From Thermus brockianus (lineage in GTDB: Bacteria > Deinococcota > Deinococci > Deinococcales > Thermaceae), in assembly GCF_001880325.1 (NCBI RefSeq), contig NZ_CP016312.1, positions 1,612,001-1,676,000 on the forward strand: DNA of 64,000 nucleotides, given 5' to 3'. Numbering within the stretch: position 1 is the first letter of the stretch; each line of letters starts with the position of its first letter. Under the pieces are notes generated by a model. The model searched no databases. It saw only the letters and a list, made by a program, of their open reading frames with translations, and had not been told where the DNA came from. The translations under genes and the position numbers were made by a program. Below are positions 15,723 to 24,826 of this stretch, in pieces.

Positions 15723-17585
15723 ATGCCCAAGGGATACCACGACCGCGTGGCCTTCGTGGACCTCTCCACGGGGCGCATCTGGTACGAAAGCTACGGTGAG
15801 GGCTTTTGGCGCCGGTACCTGGGGGGTAGGGCCCTTGCCGCCTACCTCCTCCTCAAGCACGTGCCCAAGGGGGCGGACCCCCTGGGGCCGGAAAACGCCC
15901 TCGTCTTTGCCCCCGGGGTCCTCACCGGCACCCCCATCTCCGGCTCGGGGCGGAACACCGTGGCCGCCAAGAGCCCCTTGACCGGCGGGTACGGGGACGC
16001 CGAGGGGGGTGGCTTCTTCGGGGCTGAGCTGAAGAACGCCGGACTGGACGCCTTGGTGGTCCTTGGCCAGGCGGAAAGCCCCGTCTACCTGCACGTGGAG
16101 GGGGGCGAGGTGGCCATCCACCCCGCCAGCCACCTTTGGGGCAAGGACCCCTTGGAGGTGGAGGCCCTCATCAAGGAGGCGCACGGGGGGAATGCCCGCA
16201 TCGCCCAGATCGGCCTGGCGGGGGAGAACGGGGTCCTCACCGCCAACGTGATCCACGACCTGGCCCACTTCGCCGGCCGGGGAGGCTTGGGGGCGGTGAT
16301 GGGGGCGAAACGCCTCAAAGCGGTTTCCGCCCGGGCAAGGAAGGAAACCCTTCCCCCTTACCACGACCCCGCCCTCCTCAAGGAGCTCGCCCGGCGCATG
16401 GCCAAGGAGCGCATGGAGCGGGCGGCGGGCCTCGTCACCATGGGTACCGTGGGCACGGTGAAGCCCTTTAACCTCCGGGGGGTCCTCCCGAGCCACAACT
16501 TCCTGGATGGCTTTTTGGAGGGCGCCGAGGCCCTGGACGGCACCAGCCTGGACGCCCTGGGCATCCGCATTGGCCGGGACACCTGCTACGCCTGCGCCAT
16601 CCGCTGCAAGCAGGTGGTGAGGATAGAGGGCACGGGCAAGTACGATGTGCGCCCGGAGTACGGGGGGCCGGAGTATGAGGGGCTTGGGGCCTTGGGCTCC
16701 ACCTGCGGGGTCACCGAACCCTACGCCGTGACCAAGGCCAATACCCTTTGCAACCAGTACGGGCTGGACGTGATCGGGGTGGGGGTGACCGTCGCCTGCG
16801 CCATGGAGGCGGTGGAAAAGGGCTATTTGGACGATGAGGGGCTTGGCCTCCGCTTCGGCAACGGGGATGCCCTCATCGCCGCCATTGAGAAGCTCGCCCG
16901 CAAGGAGGGGCGGCTTGGGGCCCTTCTGGCCTTGGGGGCGAGGCGGTTGGCGGAGGCCATCGGCCATCCCGAGCTCGCCATGCACGTGAAGGGCCAGGAG
17001 GTGCCCATGCACGACCCCCGGTACAAGCGGGCCCTGGGGGTGGGCTACGCCGTGAGCCCCACGGGGGCGGACCACAACCACAACCTCCACGACACCGCCT
17101 TCGCCAAGGAAGGGAAGGCTCTAAAGGAGCTCCGCTTCTACGGGGAGGACTTCCCGCCCCTGCCCATTGAGGACCTCTCCGAAACCAAGATCCGCATGCT
17201 CTGGACCAAGACCCGGGAGCGGGGCTTCGTGAACAGCCTGGTGCTTTGCGACTTCGTCCCCTGGACCCCCGAGGAGTGGCAGGAGGCGGTCTACGCTGCC
17301 ACGGGCTGGCGCCTGACCCCTGAGGAGATGCTGGCGGTGGGGGAGAGGACCTTGCAGCTCACGCGCCTTTTCAACCTCCGGGAAGGCCTCTCCCCGGAGG
17401 AGGACCGGCTTCCCGAGCGCTTTTTCCAGCCCTTCCGGCGGGGGAACCTCGAGGCCCGGCTGGACCCGGTGGCCTTCCGGGAAGGGGTCTTGGCCTACCG
17501 CCGGCTCGCGGGCTGGGAAGGGGGGGTGGACCCCGGGCGGCTTGCCGCCCTTGGCCTAGAGGAGTTCCAAAACGCCCTGGCGTAG
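15723..17585 (+). CDS. aor: Aldehyde:ferredoxin oxidoreductase (tungsten enzyme family)
   Basis: Oxidises aldehydes to acids with ferredoxin as acceptor, using a bis-pyranopterin tungsten (or molybdenum) cofactor and one [4Fe-4S] cluster. Of 620 aa, the cluster ligands are Cys288, Cys291 and Cys295 (CYACAIRC) and probably Cys509 (LVLCDF), matching the AOR pattern. Pterin-contact motifs such as GRNTVAAKSPLTGGYGDAEG and YGLDVIGVGVTVACAMEA are present. No RBS is needed if the mRNA is leaderless. The 3' end overlaps the convergent DUF58 gene by 30 bases. The substrate range is not predictable; moeA, a cofactor gene, lies 9 kb away. Confidence 0.93.
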   Translation: MPKGYHDRVAFVDLSTGRIWYESYGEGFWRRYLGGRALAAYLLLKHVPKGADPLGPENALVFAPGVLTGTPISGSGRNTVAAKSPLTGGYGDAEGGGFFGAELKNAGLDALVVLGQAESPVYLHVEGGEVAIHPASHLWGKDPLEVEALIKEAHGGNARIAQIGLAGENGVLTANVIHDLAHFAGRGGLGAVMGAKRLKAVSARARKETLPPYHDPALLKELARRMAKERMERAAGLVTMGTVGTVKPFNLRGVLPSHNFLDGFLEGAEALDGTSLDALGIRIGRDTCYACAIRCKQVVRIEGTGKYDVRPEYGGPEYEGLGALGSTCGVTEPYAVTKANTLCNQYGLDVIGVGVTVACAMEAVEKGYLDDEGLGLRFGNGDALIAAIEKLARKEGRLGALLALGARRLAEAIGHPELAMHVKGQEVPMHDPRYKRALGVGYAVSPTGADHNHNLHDTAFAKEGKALKELRFYGEDFPPLPIEDLSETKIRMLWTKTRERGFVNSLVLCDFVPWTPEEWQEAVYAATGWRLTPEEMLAVGERTLQLTRLFNLREGLSPEEDRLPERFFQPFRRGNLEARLDPVAFREGVLAYRRLAGWEGGVDPGRLAALGLEEFQNALA

Positions 17586-18230
17586 GAGGGCGGGCAGGGG
17601 CGGTTCCCCCACCCTTAGGAGGGCGTACCTTCCCCGGAGGAGGGCGAGGAGGCGGAGGGCTTTGAGGTGCTTCGCCAGGGCCTCCCGGTAGGCCTCCACC
17701 TCCGCCCTCCCCACCCAAAGGGCCTCCCCCGTCTCCACGTCCCGCAGGAGGGCTTCCCCAAAGGGCGGCTGGAGCTCCTGGGGGGAGAGGATCTGGACCA
17801 GGACCACCCGCCGGGGGAGGAGCTTCGCCCAGGGCAAGGGGTCCAGGCCGTCCGTGAGGAGGACCAAGGTACCCCTTCCCGCCCCCCAGGCCCCGGGTCT
17901 ACCCCGCGCTAGACGGGCTTGGGGGTCCTCCTGCCGGGCGATCCGGAGGAGGAGGGAGGCCACCTCCTCGGCGTAGGCCAGTTTCCCGTGGAGGCGCATG
18001 CTCTCGCTCTCGTCCAGGTAGAGGCGGAAGCGGGGCCTTTCCGGGGCGGTTTCCAGGCGGGTGTAGAGCCTTCCCGTCTTGGCGTAGGCCCGCCAGTGGA
18101 CCCGGCGCACCTCGTCCCCGGGGGCGTAGGGGCGAAGCTCAAAGAACTCCCCTCCAAAGCCCTTTCTCCGGGCGAGTCGCTCCCCGGGGTAGGGGAGGTA
18201 GGGCTTGGTGGCGAGGCGGTAGCGGGTCAT
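17556..18230 (-). CDS. DUF58 domain protein, short form
   Basis: A 224-aa protein starting TRYRLATKPYLPYPGERLARR; the DUF58 signature FELRPYAPGDEVRRVHWRAY comes at residues about 30-50 (PGD..R.I.W). A von Willebrand-like part follows with LYLDESESM and LVLLTDGLD, in which the metal-site Asp-x-Ser-x-Ser pattern is recognisable. It lacks the N-terminal membrane helices of longer DUF58 proteins. The start ATG overlaps the nrdJ stop (ATGA), so the two are coupled. These proteins often work with MoxR ATPases, but none is seen here. Confidence 0.8.
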   Translation of the reverse strand: MTRYRLATKPYLPYPGERLARRKGFGGEFFELRPYAPGDEVRRVHWRAYAKTGRLYTRLETAPERPRFRLYLDESESMRLHGKLAYAEEVASLLLRIARQEDPQARLARGRPGAWGAGRGTLVLLTDGLDPLPWAKLLPRRVVLVQILSPQELQPPFGEALLRDVETGEALWVGRAEVEAYREALAKHLKALRLLALLRGRYALLRVGEPPLPALLRQGVLELL

Positions 18231-19987
18231 GCCGTCTGGCAGAAGGTGCAGACCCCCACGGGGGGCAAGGGCTCCATGACCTCCTCCCGGCTTCCCTCCC
18301 GGAAGACGGTGATCCCCTTGCACCCCTCCTTCCAAGCGGTGAGGAAAAGCTGTTCCACCACCTCCTTGGGGGTTTCCTTGGGCAGGTTCACCGTGGAGGA
18401 GATGCTTTGGTCCACGTGGCGTTGCAAGGTGGCTTGGAGGCGCACCCTTTGGAATGGGTCCACGGTGTGCGCCGTGGGCCAGTCGGGGGTGCCGCCTTTG
18501 GTGGCCTTTCGGTAGCGCTTGAGAAGGGGGTGCTCCGCCAGGAAGACCTCTCCCCCGGCGTGGCGGAGGTAGGTGAGGGCGAAGATGGGCTCAATGCCGC
18601 CCGTCACCCCGGCCAGGATGGAGATGGACCCCGTGGGGGCGATGGAGAGGAGGGCGGCGTTTCTTAAACCTTTTTCCACCTTCTGGATGAGGGCCTCGGG
18701 GAGGGCCTGGATGAAGGGGCTTTGGAGGTGTTTTGCGGCGTTAAAGGCGGGGAAGGGGCCCTTCTCTTGGGCCAGCTGGGCGCTTTCCCCGTAGGCCGCC
18801 TCCTTGATGCGGCGCATGACCTCCTCGGCGAGGCGGAGGGCTTCCCCGCTGCCGTAGGGGAGGCCCAGCATGGCCAGCATGTCGGCGAGGCCCATGAGGC
18901 CAAGCCCGATGCGGCGGCTTCTCAGGGAGGCTTCCTTCTGGGCCCGCACGGGGTGGCGGTTCTTCCCCAGGTCCACCACCGCATCCAAGAAGCGCACCGC
19001 AAGCCGGGTGGCCTCCTCCAAGGCGGCGTAGTCCAGGGAGGCGTGGGGGGTGAAGGGGGCCTGGACGAAGGCGGCGAGGTTGAGGCTTCCCAGGTTGCAG
19101 GCCCCGTAGGGCTCCATGGGCACCTCCCCGCAGACGTTGACGCCTTGCACCTCCATCCCCCCGTACTGGGCCGTGGCCCAGGTGCGCACCCGGTCCCAGA
19201 AGAGGAGGCCAGGCTCGGCGCTGGCCCAGGCGGCCTCCACCAGGAGGGTCCATGCCTCCCTGGCCCGGATCTCCGCCCTGATTTCCTCCCTGGGCGTGGT
19301 GAAGGAAAGCCGCCAGGGCTCGTCGGCCAAGGCGGCTTCCAGGAAAGCGTCCGTGGCCCTTAGGGAGAGGTTGGCGTGGCGGATCCTCCTGCGCTCGGGG
19401 TCGGTCTTGGCCCTAAGGAAGTCCAGAAGCTCGGGGTGGGTGTCGGCGAAGGTGAGCATGAGGGCACCCCTCCTCCCCCCGCTCGCCCCCATGACCCCGG
19501 CCAGGGTGGAGAATAGCTCCATGAAGCTCACCGCCCCCGAGCTTTCCACCCCGGCGTTCCCCACCTTGGCCCCCTTGGGGCGGAGGACGTCGGCGTTGGT
19601 GCCCACCCCGCCTCCGTAGGCGAAGGTGCGCATGGCCTCGTCCAGGAAGCGGGCGATGCCCCGCACGGAGTCTTCCCGGATGGGGACGAAGTAGCAGTTG
19701 AAAAGGGTGCTCTTCCGCCAGTTGCCGAGGCCGAAGAGGATCCTCCCCCCAGGGACGAAGCGGAAGTCCTGGAGGAGCCAAAGGTAGGCTTCCTCCATCC
19801 CCCGGTCCAGCCGGGCGGCGTGGCGGGCGAGGCGGCGCCATAGCTCCGGGGGGGTGGCCTCGAGGGGCCTCCCCTCCCTGTCCCGCAGGGCGTAGCGCCG
19901 GAGGAAGACGCTCGCCCTAAGTTCGTCCCCCTCAAAGAACTCCAGGGCCAGGCGGATGGCCTCTTCTTCCCGGTAGGGCTTGGGCAC
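18227..19987 (-). CDS. nrdJ: Adenosylcobalamin-dependent ribonucleotide reductase (class II)
   Basis: Makes deoxyribonucleotides using adenosylcobalamin instead of an oxygen-dependent radical subunit. The 586-aa product has the N-terminal disulfide Cys region (LFNCYFVPI), GVGTNADVLRPKGAKVGNAGVESSG cut short here as GGGVGTNADVLR, the radical/acid motif NVCGEVP (usually NPCGE), ACNLGSLNL, and the phosphate loop SIAPTGSISILAG. The last residues VCTFCQTA hold the redox-active Cys pair that re-reduces the site. Start is GTG 19987 with GAAGG upstream. It faces away from the IS element at 20.06 kb. Confidence 0.92.
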   Translation of the reverse strand: MPKPYREEEAIRLALEFFEGDELRASVFLRRYALRDREGRPLEATPPELWRRLARHAARLDRGMEEAYLWLLQDFRFVPGGRILFGLGNWRKSTLFNCYFVPIREDSVRGIARFLDEAMRTFAYGGGVGTNADVLRPKGAKVGNAGVESSGAVSFMELFSTLAGVMGASGGRRGALMLTFADTHPELLDFLRAKTDPERRRIRHANLSLRATDAFLEAALADEPWRLSFTTPREEIRAEIRAREAWTLLVEAAWASAEPGLLFWDRVRTWATAQYGGMEVQGVNVCGEVPMEPYGACNLGSLNLAAFVQAPFTPHASLDYAALEEATRLAVRFLDAVVDLGKNRHPVRAQKEASLRSRRIGLGLMGLADMLAMLGLPYGSGEALRLAEEVMRRIKEAAYGESAQLAQEKGPFPAFNAAKHLQSPFIQALPEALIQKVEKGLRNAALLSIAPTGSISILAGVTGGIEPIFALTYLRHAGGEVFLAEHPLLKRYRKATKGGTPDWPTAHTVDPFQRVRLQATLQRHVDQSISSTVNLPKETPKEVVEQLFLTAWKEGCKGITVFREGSREEVMEPLPPVGVCTFCQTA

Positions 19988-20100: not shown

Positions 20101-20135
20101 GCGCCAGATGCCCTGTCATGGTAGACAGGTGGCGC
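20101..20135 (+). promoter_or_regulatory. Left-end hairpin overlapping the tnpB start
   Basis: GCGCCA (20101-20106) pairs with TGGCGC (20130-20135), and inside it CCTGTC (20112-20117) pairs with GACAGG (20124-20129) around loop ATGGTA; bases 20107-20111 bulge out. The GTG start of tnpB (20129-20131) is within the stem. Confidence 0.55.
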
Positions 20136-21267
20136 GTAGAGCCTTCAAATACCGCCTCTATCCCACCAAGCCCCAACAAAAAGACCTAGAACGCACCCTG
20201 GAACTCTGCCGCCAGCTCTACAACGCCGCCCTTCAGGAGAGGAGGGAGGCCTACAAGAAGGCGAAGAAAAGCCTCTCCCTCCACGAGCAAAAGCGATGGC
20301 TCCCCGAGATACGGGCTGACCTGCCCGAGTACCAAAGGGTCCACTCCCAGGTCCTGCAAGACGTTCTCCAAAGGGTAGACCGGGCTTTTCAAGGCTTCTT
20401 CCGTCGGGTTAGGGCCAAAGGGGGAAAAGCCGGTTATCCCCGGTTCAAGGGAAAGGGACGCTACGACTCCTTCACCTTCCCCCAAGCCTACGCCACCGGG
20501 GTCAAACTCCAGGAGGGGGGGAAGCGGGTGCTCATCCACGGCGTTGGTTCGGTAAAGGTGAAGCTTCACCGACCCTTAGAGGGGCAACTCAAGACCGCCA
20601 CGGTCAAGCGAGAGGGGAACGAATGGTACGTGGTCTTCGTCTGCGAGGTGGAGCCCAAACCCCTTTCCCCTTCTGGCGAGGCGGTGGGCATTGACTTGGG
20701 GACCAACCCCCACTTTCTCATCACCTCGGAGGGGGAGAAGATAGAAGCCCCCAGGTATTATCAAAAGGCTCAAAACAAACTAGCTAGGAAGCAGAGGGAG
20801 CTTTCCCGTAAGAAACGGGGTAGCAACCGGTACGACAAGGCAAAAGAGGAGCTTGCCCGGCTTCACCGGAAGGTAGCCCGGCAACGGCTGGATTTTCACC
20901 ACAAGGTGGCCCGGGGGTTGGTGAACCGCTATGGAACCATCGTCCACGAAGACCTGAACATCCTAGGTCTGAGCCGTAGCCACGTGGCTAAGGGCGTACA
21001 TGACGCTGGTTGGGCTCAGTTTTTGCGGATCCTTGCCTACAAAGCGGAGGAGGCTGGTAGGCGAGTGATAACGGTAGACCCTAAGTACACCAGCCAGGAC
21101 TGCCCGGTGTGCGGCCACAGGGAGAGGCGACCCTTGTGGGTCAGGGAGTTCACCTGTCCCGCTTGTGGGACTTCCCTGCACCGGGATGTGGCCATGTGGC
21201 CGCTGCGCGGAACATCCTGGCGAAGGCCTGGACGGGGCCTTCGGGGAGGGATGCCCTCGCGTTCTGA
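20129..21267 (+). pseudogene. tnpB: tnpB RNA-guided nuclease gene, broken by an 8-bp duplication
   Basis: TnpB is the RuvC-type, omega-RNA-guided nuclease of IS605 elements and the ancestor of Cas12. From GTG 20129 the protein runs RAFKYRLYPTKPQ, then the RuvC motifs GIDLGTNP (Asp189), IVHEDLNILGL (Glu274), the zinc ribbon CPVCG...CPACG, and RDV with Asp353. Directly there ATGTGGCC occurs twice in tandem (21186-21193, 21194-21201), shifting the frame. Removing one copy restores AAARNILAKAW, the conserved RuvC-III end, and a stop at 21265-21267 (376 codons). As it stands the RN residues after the last catalytic Asp are lost, so the nuclease is probably dead. Confidence 0.85.
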
Positions 21268-22757
<1,490 letters not shown>

Positions 22758-22758
22758 C

Positions 22759-24495
22759 GTGCGGGTCCTGGGGCGCAGGGTTTACTGGCGGTGGTACGGG
22801 GAGGTGCTCCTGGAGGAGGGCATCGTCCTCCGCATGTCGGGGGATGCCGCCAAGTGGCTTCGCCCAGGGGACCGGGTGCGCTTAAGGACGGAGTTCCAAA
22901 AGCCCCTCCTGGACTTTGACGAGTACGCCCTAGAGGGGGCCTTCCCCCTCTGGCCCCCCTTTAGCCGGGAGCTCGTGCACGTGCGGGAAAGCCCCTTGGG
23001 CGGGGAGGCCTACCGGTACCGCCTTCGGGTGCGGGAGGCCACCTACGAGGGGGATTTTGAGGCCATCGCCGAGCTGGAGCAGTTCCACTACGCCTCGGAG
23101 AAGGAGGTGGTGGCCCTTTGGGTCTGCACCCGGTGCCATAAGACCCTTCTCGCCAACGCCAAGCCCGTCTGCGATTGCGGGGGAGAGGCGCGGCTTAAGG
23201 AGATTCGGGGCTCCACCCCGGCGAGCCGCTTCCTGGTGTTAGAACTCCTGGAGCGCCTCCCCTTTGAGCCCAAGATCCTCGGCTACCTGCGCCTAGACCC
23301 GCCCATCCCCCGCATGCACCGCAAGACCCCCCAAGGGGTGGAGCGGGACATCCGGGAAAGGATTTTCCCCAAGGACTGGTTCCACCCCACCTACGAGGGG
23401 GGAGGCGACTGGGAGGAGGCCCTGGACCGGGTGCATACCGCCGCCGCCCGCATCGCCCGGGTGGTGGTCCACCCCGACTACCGCTCGGAGGGCTTTGGGA
23501 AGCTTCTGGTGGAGATGGCCTTGGCCTGGGCCAAGGAGCGGGGCGCCCCCGAGGGAAGGCGGGAGAAGCACCTCGTCTACACCATCGCCCAGATGGCCCG
23601 CTACCACCCCTTCTTTGAGAAGGTGGGCTTCCGCTACCTCTTTGAAACCGCCTCGGGGCGGCCCGTGCTCTTTTACCCCTTAACCGAGGAGGCGAGGGCG
23701 TATTTAGAGCGCTTCCTCCGGGAGGATCCCTACGCCCGGGCCCACGGGGGGAGGCTCTTCCGGCCCCGGTTTGGGCGGGTGGCGGGGCTTAAGGGGCCCA
23801 TAAGCCTCCAAGGGGTCCACAAGGCTTACCGGAGCCACCTGGACCTTAAGGGGCTCTCCGGGGAGGTTCAGGAGGCCTTGGCGGCCTTTGGGGTGAAGGC
23901 GCGGGTGGTGGAGCGGGCGGTGCTCCGGGGTGCGGCGTTGGAAATTCCCCCAGGGGCCCTGGTGGTCCTGGCGGGGGCGAGCGGGGCGGGGAAGACCACC
24001 CTGCTCCGCCTCCTCCTGGGCGAGCCCCCGGACCTGGGCCGGGTGGTCCTGCCCCCGGGCAGGCGCGTGGCCTACATCCCGGGGGAGCGGGAGGTGGCGC
24101 TGGGGGAGGGGGCGGTCCTCGAGGCGGTCTACCGGAAGCTTGGGGACGTGGGGGCGGCCATTGAGGTCTTGAACCGCGTGGGGCTTTCCGACGCCGTGCT
24201 CTACCGGGCCAGGCCCTTGGAGCTTTCCACGGGGCAGAGGGAGCGCTTCCGCCTCGCCCTTCTCTTGGCCGAGAGGCCCGACCTTCTCCTCATAGACGAG
24301 TTCGCCGCCCACCTGGACGTGCCCACCGCCCGGCGGGTGGCCTTGGGCCTGGGCAAGCTTTGCCGGGAAGCGGGGATCACCCTGGTGGCGGCCACCCACC
24401 GCCCCGAGGTCATCGCCGCCTTGGACCCCGACCTGCTGGTCTTTGTGGGCTACGGGGGGCTCACCACGGTACCTCGGAGAGGTCCACGAACATGA
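22759..24495 (+). CDS. Fusion of a zinc-finger/GNAT acetyltransferase part with an ABC-type ATPase
   Basis: A 578-aa protein with unusual domain order. Residues 1-110 resemble no family known to me; a zinc-binding CTRCHKTLLANAKPVCDCGG follows at about 122-141. A GNAT acetyltransferase core has VVVHPDYRSEGFGKLLVEMA at about 234-253 (acetyl-CoA loop). The C-terminal third is an ABC ATPase: Walker A GASGAGKTT at about 404, signature LSTGQRERF at about 488, Walker B LLLIDEFAAHLD at about 509. No membrane segment exists, so it is not a transporter. GTG 22759 starts one base after the proS stop, so the two are co-translated, which hints at a translation-related role. Function unknown. Confidence 0.75.
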   Translation: MRVLGRRVYWRWYGEVLLEEGIVLRMSGDAAKWLRPGDRVRLRTEFQKPLLDFDEYALEGAFPLWPPFSRELVHVRESPLGGEAYRYRLRVREATYEGDFEAIAELEQFHYASEKEVVALWVCTRCHKTLLANAKPVCDCGGEARLKEIRGSTPASRFLVLELLERLPFEPKILGYLRLDPPIPRMHRKTPQGVERDIRERIFPKDWFHPTYEGGGDWEEALDRVHTAAARIARVVVHPDYRSEGFGKLLVEMALAWAKERGAPEGRREKHLVYTIAQMARYHPFFEKVGFRYLFETASGRPVLFYPLTEEARAYLERFLREDPYARAHGGRLFRPRFGRVAGLKGPISLQGVHKAYRSHLDLKGLSGEVQEALAAFGVKARVVERAVLRGAALEIPPGALVVLAGASGAGKTTLLRLLLGEPPDLGRVVLPPGRRVAYIPGEREVALGEGAVLEAVYRKLGDVGAAIEVLNRVGLSDAVLYRARPLELSTGQRERFRLALLLAERPDLLLIDEFAAHLDVPTARRVALGLGKLCREAGITLVAATHRPEVIAALDPDLLVFVGYGGLTTVPRRGPRT

Positions 24496-24826
24496 CCCGG
24501 CCCTTGCGCCGGGGAACCCAGAGGGGTTTTTCATAGCGGAAGGCGTTTTCCAAGACCCAGGCGTAGAGGGGGGCATCCTCGGCGTAGGCCCGGAGGAAGG
24601 CCTCCTCCGCCCGGTGCTTGGCGAAGTGGGGCAGGAGCTCCTCCACGCTGAAAGGGCCTTCCACGCCCACCAGGTCCGCCTGGCCGATAAGCCTCCCTCC
24701 CGTGACGATGCCCAAGGGCCCCCGGTGGCGGGCGTAGCGCTTGCGAATCTCCCAGGTTTTCTCGCCGTCCACGATGAGGCTGGCGTAGGGTTCGCGCACG
24801 ATGAGCCCGATTTTGGGCCTTTCCAC
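24461..24826 (-). CDS. ASCH domain protein
   Basis: A 121-aa protein with the ASCH (PUA-like, RNA-binding) signature at its start: GLIVREPYASLIVDGEKTWE followed by IRKR; the rest (LIGQADLVGVEGPFSVEELL, then VMFVDLSEVPW) fits the fold. ASCH proteins bind RNA or act as small nucleoside hydrolases. Its 3' end overlaps the end of the GNAT-ABC gene on the other strand by 35 bases. It is divergent from nth. Confidence 0.8.
   Translation of the reverse strand: MERPKIGLIVREPYASLIVDGEKTWEIRKRYARHRGPLGIVTGGRLIGQADLVGVEGPFSVEELLPHFAKHRAEEAFLRAYAEDAPLYAWVLENAFRYEKPLWVPRRKGRVMFVDLSEVPW

Follow-up and report, generated by a model that had tools for sequence, protein, structure and literature searches.

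The window analysed here, a 64,000-nucleotide stretch of the Thermus brockianus genome (contig NZ_CP016312.1, positions 1,612,001 to 1,676,000), contains a gene whose product joins a GNAT acyltransferase domain to an ABC ATPase domain (hereafter GNAT-ABC), which raises the question of what such a protein acts on. Near-full-length relatives share 47-96% identity with it, which rules out a spurious GC-rich frame. An earlier note had described zinc ligands, GNAT and ABC ATPase as fused in one soluble protein, and this description was borne out by Pfam, the Cys ligands and hydropathy. Pfam recognised Acetyltransf_7 (PF13508) at residues 228-292 (E 1.7e-8; 35.1 bits, cut-off 27) and ABC_tran (PF00005) at residues 390-515 (E 3.8e-16; 60.4 bits, cut-off 25), both above the gathering scores, and no membrane span was evident in the chain, the best 19-residue Kyte-Doolittle mean being 1.54. 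The features of the gene and of its convergent neighbour are collected in Table 1.

Table 1. Positions in the window of the GNAT-ABC gene, its domains and motifs, and the convergent ASCH gene.
Feature	Position	Strand	Basis and remarks
OB-like + zinc-ribbon-GNAT + ABC ATPase fusion protein	22759..24495	+	578 aa, GTG start
Small N-terminal beta barrel, OB-like, residues 1-65	22759..22953	+	AlphaFold pLDDT 93.4; weak structure matches, best Z 6.8
GNAT acyltransferase domain, approximately residues 66-335	22954..23763	+	Pfam; AlphaFold pLDDT 92.7; structure matches
Zinc-ribbon insert in GNAT, residues 119-145, Cys 123, 126, 138, 140	23113..23193	+	Four Cys in 33 of 62 aligned sequences
Acyl-CoA pyrophosphate loop R242-S-E-G-F-G247	23482..23499	+	R242, G245 and G247 invariant in 62 of 62; aligned in phage GNAT
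ABC ATPase domain, residues 352-566	23812..24456	+	Pfam PF00005; alignment
Walker A, GASGAGKTT	23974..24000	+	Motif in alignment
ABC signature, LSTGQ	24223..24237	+	Motif in alignment
Walker B, LLLIDE, with catalytic Glu	24283..24300	+	Motif in alignment
H-loop, His547	24397..24399	+	Motif read
ASCH-domain partner, 121 aa, convergent	24461..24826	-	PF04266, E 4.4e-10; 35-nt overlap with the 3' end of GNAT-ABC

Residues 1-352 were modelled with AlphaFold from 62 aligned sequences (mean pLDDT 92.7), and the N-terminal barrel was also modelled by itself. Foldseek with the barrel model returned nothing at E 0.001 or better, and structure comparison gave weak matches, among others to ModE/ModG, lysyl-tRNA synthetase, SSB, RPA and TiaS, many of which we take to be OB-type barrels. 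The earlier note had placed the zinc ligands in a domain of their own ahead of the acetyltransferase; the order of GNAT followed by ABC stood, and the ligands were found in an insert inside the GNAT fold. Among the 62 aligned sequences, this ribbon carries CxxC...CxxC in 27, CxxC...CxC in six (the pattern of the window protein), one CxxC in 15 and fewer Cys in 14; relatives from the order's other family lack two of the four zinc-ribbon Cys. Invariant columns in the N-terminal and GNAT part number 48, ten of which hold Arg, Lys or His. The acyl-CoA loop conforms to the GNAT pattern R/Q-x-x-G-x-G/A.

In the Foldseek search with the GNAT model, NAT10 occupied ranks 1-3 (E 6.0e-6 to 7.9e-6) with poor superposition (TM 0.26-0.28, rmsd approximately 10). 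In VIA-align the highest Z belonged to the phage Mu protein Mom (12.2, 168 residues, rmsd 3.1), in a tie with YhbS (12.0) and many acetyltransferases that act on proteins or small molecules. These model-based rankings would favour a nucleobase substrate without proving one. With Walker A, the LSTGQ signature, the Walker B Glu and the H-loop all intact, the ABC domain should, as predicted from these motifs, hydrolyse ATP, and since each chain contains one PF00005 stretch, two chains would presumably have to dimerise.

A scan of named genomes with the family alignment recovered 136 relatives, so the protein is not unique. The best 80 of these 136, many from draft genomes, were kept for locus analysis. 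Bacterial carriers among them belong to Thermus, other Thermaceae, Chloroflexota, Bipolaricaulota/Acetothermia and Neomarinimicrobiota, and archaeal carriers to Thermococcus, Archaeoglobaceae, many Thermoproteota and several DPANN and Asgard-related lineages. Most of these lineages are known for thermophiles. The N-terminal and GNAT part of the window protein is 57% identical to that of Thermococcus, from which gene transfer between bacteria and archaea seems likely; in Thermomicrobium roseum the gene lies on a 0.9-Mb plasmid. Carriage is patchy at every level sampled: GNAT-ABC was found in 23 of 50 genomes of the Thermus family (E 1e-30) and in 35 of 111 of a phylum sample that includes them (E 1e-24). 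In 300 Thermoproteota genomes, sampled from the phylum of a Desulfurococcales carrier, all 18 carriers fall within the 175 genomes with reverse gyrase (hypergeometric 4e-5, kinship ignored), which indicates that the gene is optional even in presumed heat-lovers.

Several copies appear damaged. The gene reads as broken or split by stops, frame changes or contig breaks in four Thermus genomes (L024, L027/L032, L028, L029/L031/L033), and in genome G045 the ASCH gene is split alongside a broken GNAT-ABC, a picture fitting either a dispensable module or assembly errors. At two loci of the order's other family (L043, L044), Walker A, signature or Walker B is altered in a frame that is long and open, an apparent decay of the ATPase judging from these motifs; ASCH was not found near these two loci.

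The earlier note had drawn attention to proS, which ends one nucleotide before the GTG start of GNAT-ABC, and took this as a hint at modification of tRNA or ribosomes. The close spacing is real and local. Among the 23 Thermus-family genomes with GNAT-ABC, proS lies upstream at 10 nt or less in 12 and at 69-1076 nt in four; it was not found in approximately 1.5 kb upstream in five (L013, L014, L022, L023, L028), and two were unscorable (in G042 the contig ends there, and the G045 copy is broken). In the order's other family, proS precedes GNAT-ABC by 43-69 nt at L040-L043 and by 1.7 kb at L044, no proS was present in the upstream DNA examined at L034, L035, L037, L038 and L039, and L036 could not be scored; in Thermomicrobium (L046) there is none within 10 kb of the gene. 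The linkage is thus seen within the order Thermales only and is missing in several of its members, which makes it a weak hint of function, and proS was rejected as a functional partner in favour of lineage synteny. The window's proS is itself irregular: it is split by a frameshift into overlapping frames (21325-22422 and 22200-22757, together spanning 21325-22757 on the + strand), its own open frame has 384 codons, whereas five other Thermus genomes have 479-502, and a single proS place was found in the genome it belongs to (E 1e-40). The frameshift is likely a sequencing or assembly error. An IS605-type TnpB (OrfB) gene (20108-21310, +) lies immediately 5' of proS.

The informative partner of GNAT-ABC is the ASCH gene, not proS. 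A close relative of the ASCH protein is TTHA0113 of Thermus thermophilus (structures 1wk2 and 2dp9), the Thermus structures having been deposited as hypothetical proteins. Of 50 Thermus-family genomes, 23 hold both genes and 27 hold neither, with none holding just one. Five Thermus genomes lacking both have proS adjoining nth at 0 to approximately 190 nt, and because these five do not group as one clade on a proS+nth tree, several losses are likely. Across named genomes, Thermus included, locus counts were based on an ASCH profile built from domain envelopes. At the best 80 of the 136 loci, ASCH is downstream and convergent in 12, upstream and divergent in eight, upstream on the same strand in seven, fused to the GNAT-ABC C-terminus in six (bacterial) and approximately 2.9 kb away in two; it is therefore adjacent within 0.5 kb or fused at 33 of the 80. 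The DNA examined around the other 45 loci, nine of them near a contig end, contained no ASCH.

Co-occurrence extends to genomes in which the two genes are far apart. Among 94 Thermococcaceae, 57 have both genes, 32 neither, one GNAT-ABC only and four ASCH only (Fisher 1.4e-19, kinship ignored), and in the 30 tabulated genomes with both on contig C1 the genes are separated by 31 kb to 1 Mb, so that linkage does not explain the association. At four Thermococcaceae loci (L179-L182), the unlinked ASCH gene sits inside a conserved stretch whose neighbours, from translations read by eye, look like a PRPP synthetase and RadB-like, FAU-1-like and Trm5/TYW2-like proteins; some frames in this stretch look antisense to rRNA. 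A whole-genome ASCH search covered 41 of the 45 loci without a nearby ASCH, together with three positive controls, all of which were detected. ASCH was present elsewhere in nine of these 41 genomes (seven of the eight Thermococcaceae, one Archaeoglobaceae and one partial) and was not found at E 1e-5 in 32, mostly draft genomes of Thermoproteota, which argues against an obligatory pair. Neighbour families present in at least four of 65 mainly archaeal loci were also clustered and read by eye. Only ASCH (16 loci) recurred across unrelated lineages within approximately 0.4 kb; four loci in two lineages had a helicase-like family, mostly kilobases away, and the remaining families represented single-lineage synteny or antisense-looking frames.

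The partner family shares the ASCH domain and the octapeptide G-x-K-x-x-[ETS]-x-R with YqfB-type ASCH amidohydrolases, and its Lys and Arg are kept. According to the parts of the literature used here, YqfB-type proteins hydrolyse N4-acetylcytidine by a Lys-Thr-Glu triad (PMC6972931, PMC9599836), and the YqfB variant Thr24Ala is inactive (PMC6972931). The families differ at this sixth place of the octapeptide, which is the catalytic Thr24 in YqfB (PMC9599836, PMC6972931) but Glu in 25 of 25 aligned partner sequences and in 42 of 42 domain hits (39 distinct). Because Glu stands at the position of the catalytic Thr, binding is a more probable role for the partner than YqfB-type hydrolysis. A role as YqfB-type deacetylase was considered and judged unlikely for the same reason.

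Relatives of both GNAT-ABC domains were also identified in phages. With the window protein as tblastn query, six Rhizobium phage records were matched, all in the ABC part alone, and in these phages GNAT and the ABC domain are separate genes (phrog_886 and phrog_293). The phage GNAT profile matched the family GNAT profile over 66 columns (E 2.7e-6, probability 88%). For the phage ABC profile, E was 2.4e-32 with the family profile and 6.3e-23 with the single window sequence, whereas the best of seven ordinary ABC ATPases from the same genome as the window reached 6.4e-15; one of these ordinary sequences, however, is matched by the family ABC profile at 5.4e-31. When a Thermococcus member served as tblastn query, ABC genes of SSU5-type phages appeared at 3e-13 to 1e-8, intermixed with ordinary ABC ATPases, among the matches listed (60 of 884 records). 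The ABC likeness is thus specific only in part, and the main support for a phage link comes from the GNAT match together with the pairing of the genes. When only the GNAT part was used as tblastn query against phages, matches did not exceed chance level (best E approximately 1), and an IMG/VR search with the Thermus protein and with the family alignment returned no relative.

The phage GNAT gene is present in 30 phage records. In all four records opened, ParB-like genes precede the GNAT and ABC pair, and a terminase follows it in three, the Cyrano record ending before that point. The GNAT gene of Cyrano is annotated with the MK0520 name, and that of a Klebsiella phage carries a similar annotation with the wording 'acyltransferase' and without 'MK0520'. 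Taken together, the split pair of SSU5/RHEph10-type phages is a distant, homologous form of the GNAT-ABC family. The pair (RHEph10, SSU5, Cyrano) shares the GNAT and ABC profiles, the latter partly by general likeness, but differs from the cellular protein in being two genes, in aligning without the zinc ribbon or a matching N-terminal domain, and in having ParB-like genes alongside, with no ASCH annotated in the four stretches opened. A survey of jumbo phages, in the part available to us, mentions a prediction by which a GNAT paired with an ABC ATPase puts an uncharacterised acyl modification on a DNA base (PMC7824862). This GNAT and ABC combination is likely the present family; the example phage named in that part of the survey was in none of three sets of phage matches: those of the window protein, the records with the GNAT gene, and those listed for the Thermococcus member (60 of 884 records).

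The name found on the Cyrano gene belongs to the MK0520-type family ('ABC-type ATPase fused to a predicted acetyltransferase domain'), which likewise has GNAT and then a single ABC in one chain and is presumably COG2401. By domain order and by this name on phage homologues, the window protein appears to be a cellular member of the family. We found no paper on the MK0520-type/COG2401 family in the open-access literature, though parts may be in print; to what the family name conveys, the present analysis adds the OB-like barrel, a ribbon within the GNAT fold and the ASCH partner. Among characterised enzymes, the RNA cytidine acetyltransferases NAT10/Kre33/TmcA similarly join an ATP-using module to GNAT. 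Their ATPase is an RNA-helicase module, in contrast to the ABC domain here, and GNAT_acetyltr_2 matched the window protein at E 0.16 only. Mom, a DNA adenine modifier, likewise has a GNAT fold, by which it ranked first in a tie with other GNATs, and to our knowledge it has no ABC domain.

We consider the best explanation, at a probability of roughly 0.47, to be that GNAT-ABC and ASCH form an ATP-gated module for nucleobase acylation in RNA or DNA, with ASCH as reader. Two GNAT-ABC chains would clamp the nucleic acid once ATP joins their ABC domains, while the OB barrel and zinc ribbon might grip the strand. GNAT would then acylate the exocyclic amine of a base, with acyl-CoA as donor, ATP hydrolysis would free the nucleic acid, and ASCH, with its PUA-like fold, could bind the mark or guide the writer. 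This explanation is favoured by the homology to the phage pair, the statement in the available part of the jumbo-phage survey (PMC7824862), the first ranks of NAT10 and Mom, the ASCH association and the ten basic or His residues among the 48 invariant columns. It is weakened by the fact that the Mom and NAT10 matches do not discriminate, by the weak OB matches, by the general ABC likeness, by the 32 of 41 genomes without ASCH found and, within the part of the source used here, by a gel-shift assay in which YqfB-type ASCH proteins did not bind tRNA (PMC9599836). The passages on modified nucleosides in one review name no acylated base for Thermus (PMC6313347). Action on a nucleic acid, which the earlier note had proposed, has thus gained support from the phage pair, the OB-like N-terminus (weakly), the Mom and NAT10 ranks and ASCH, short of proof. 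For the cellular protein we lean slightly to RNA (tRNA or rRNA) over DNA as the target.

The main rival is a protein acetyltransferase similar to RimI or Ard1, in which the ABC domain would gate access to a ribosomal or chromatin protein. Many structure matches of the GNAT model are protein N-acetyltransferases, NatC, Naa60, RimI and Ard1 lie only 0.8-1.3 Z under the top match, and the OB, zinc-ribbon and ASCH parts would fit an enzyme bound to ribosomes as well. The position of the phage pair beside ParB-like genes and, in three of the four records opened, a terminase speaks against it, as does the published enzymatic activity of ASCH proteins, which in the parts of the sources used here is on N4-acylcytosine compounds (PMC9599836, PMC6972931); we regard this rival as a serious but minority possibility. 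DNA self-marking against restriction or phage, again with ASCH as reader, is a branch of base acylation rather than an additional reading. A patchy distribution with repeated absence, phage homologues close to packaging genes and the first, though tied, rank of Mom would all suit it, but reverse gyrase in 18 of 18 Thermoproteota carriers points to heat rather than defence, and no restriction gene was recognised among the neighbours that were clustered and read by eye. This branch is rather unlikely.

Two further readings are improbable to a similar degree. ABC-F and ABCE proteins have two tandem ABC domains, and the single domain found here counts against the likeness to soluble ribosome-acting ABC proteins that had been suspected earlier. 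A ribosome-associated ABC factor such as EttA with an extra GNAT could be argued from the upstream proS and from EttA and YheS as best PDB sequence matches, but these matches run through the ABC domain and reflect general ABC likeness, and many relatives have no proS linkage; the single ABC domain led us to judge an EttA-like factor unlikely. Part of a transporter, or an acetyltransferase that detoxifies small molecules, is suggested by the ABC_tran domain and by the small molecules on which GNATs often act, yet the chain has no membrane span and the co-inheritance with ASCH would be left unexplained.

Base acylation by GNAT-ABC would have consequences beyond this locus. The ASCH fusion, the three gene arrangements, the joint absence and the unlinked co-occurrence define a two-protein module with a testable product. 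If an acylated base is made, it would represent a new class of ATP-driven nucleic-acid modification, give a role to the ASCH protein and suggest which enzyme might make the orphan acylated nucleosides found in hyperthermophiles. The MK0520 prefix is, we assume, the locus prefix of Methanopyrus. In the part of one review used here, the biosynthesis of N6-acetyladenosine in Methanopyrus kandleri tRNA is listed as unknown, and for Thermus thermophilus five tRNAs are given as sequenced and three as partly sequenced (PMC6313347); a mesophilic methanogen, in the section used of another study, showed a mass fitting N6-acetyladenosine or a dimethylated alternative (PMC7668247). From the unknown biosynthesis and the MK0520 name on a phage homologue, one may speculate, at odds well short of even, that thermophilic bacteria and archaea have an undescribed acylated nucleobase in common, with GNAT-ABC as its ATP-gated writer and ASCH as its dedicated binder, and that in Methanopyrus the writer is possibly the missing enzyme for N6-acetyladenosine in tRNA. 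Elsewhere in the window, Pfam identified an aldehyde ferredoxin oxidoreductase (15723-17585, +), and the translation of a gene at 18227-19987 (-) reads as a vitamin B12-type ribonucleotide reductase.
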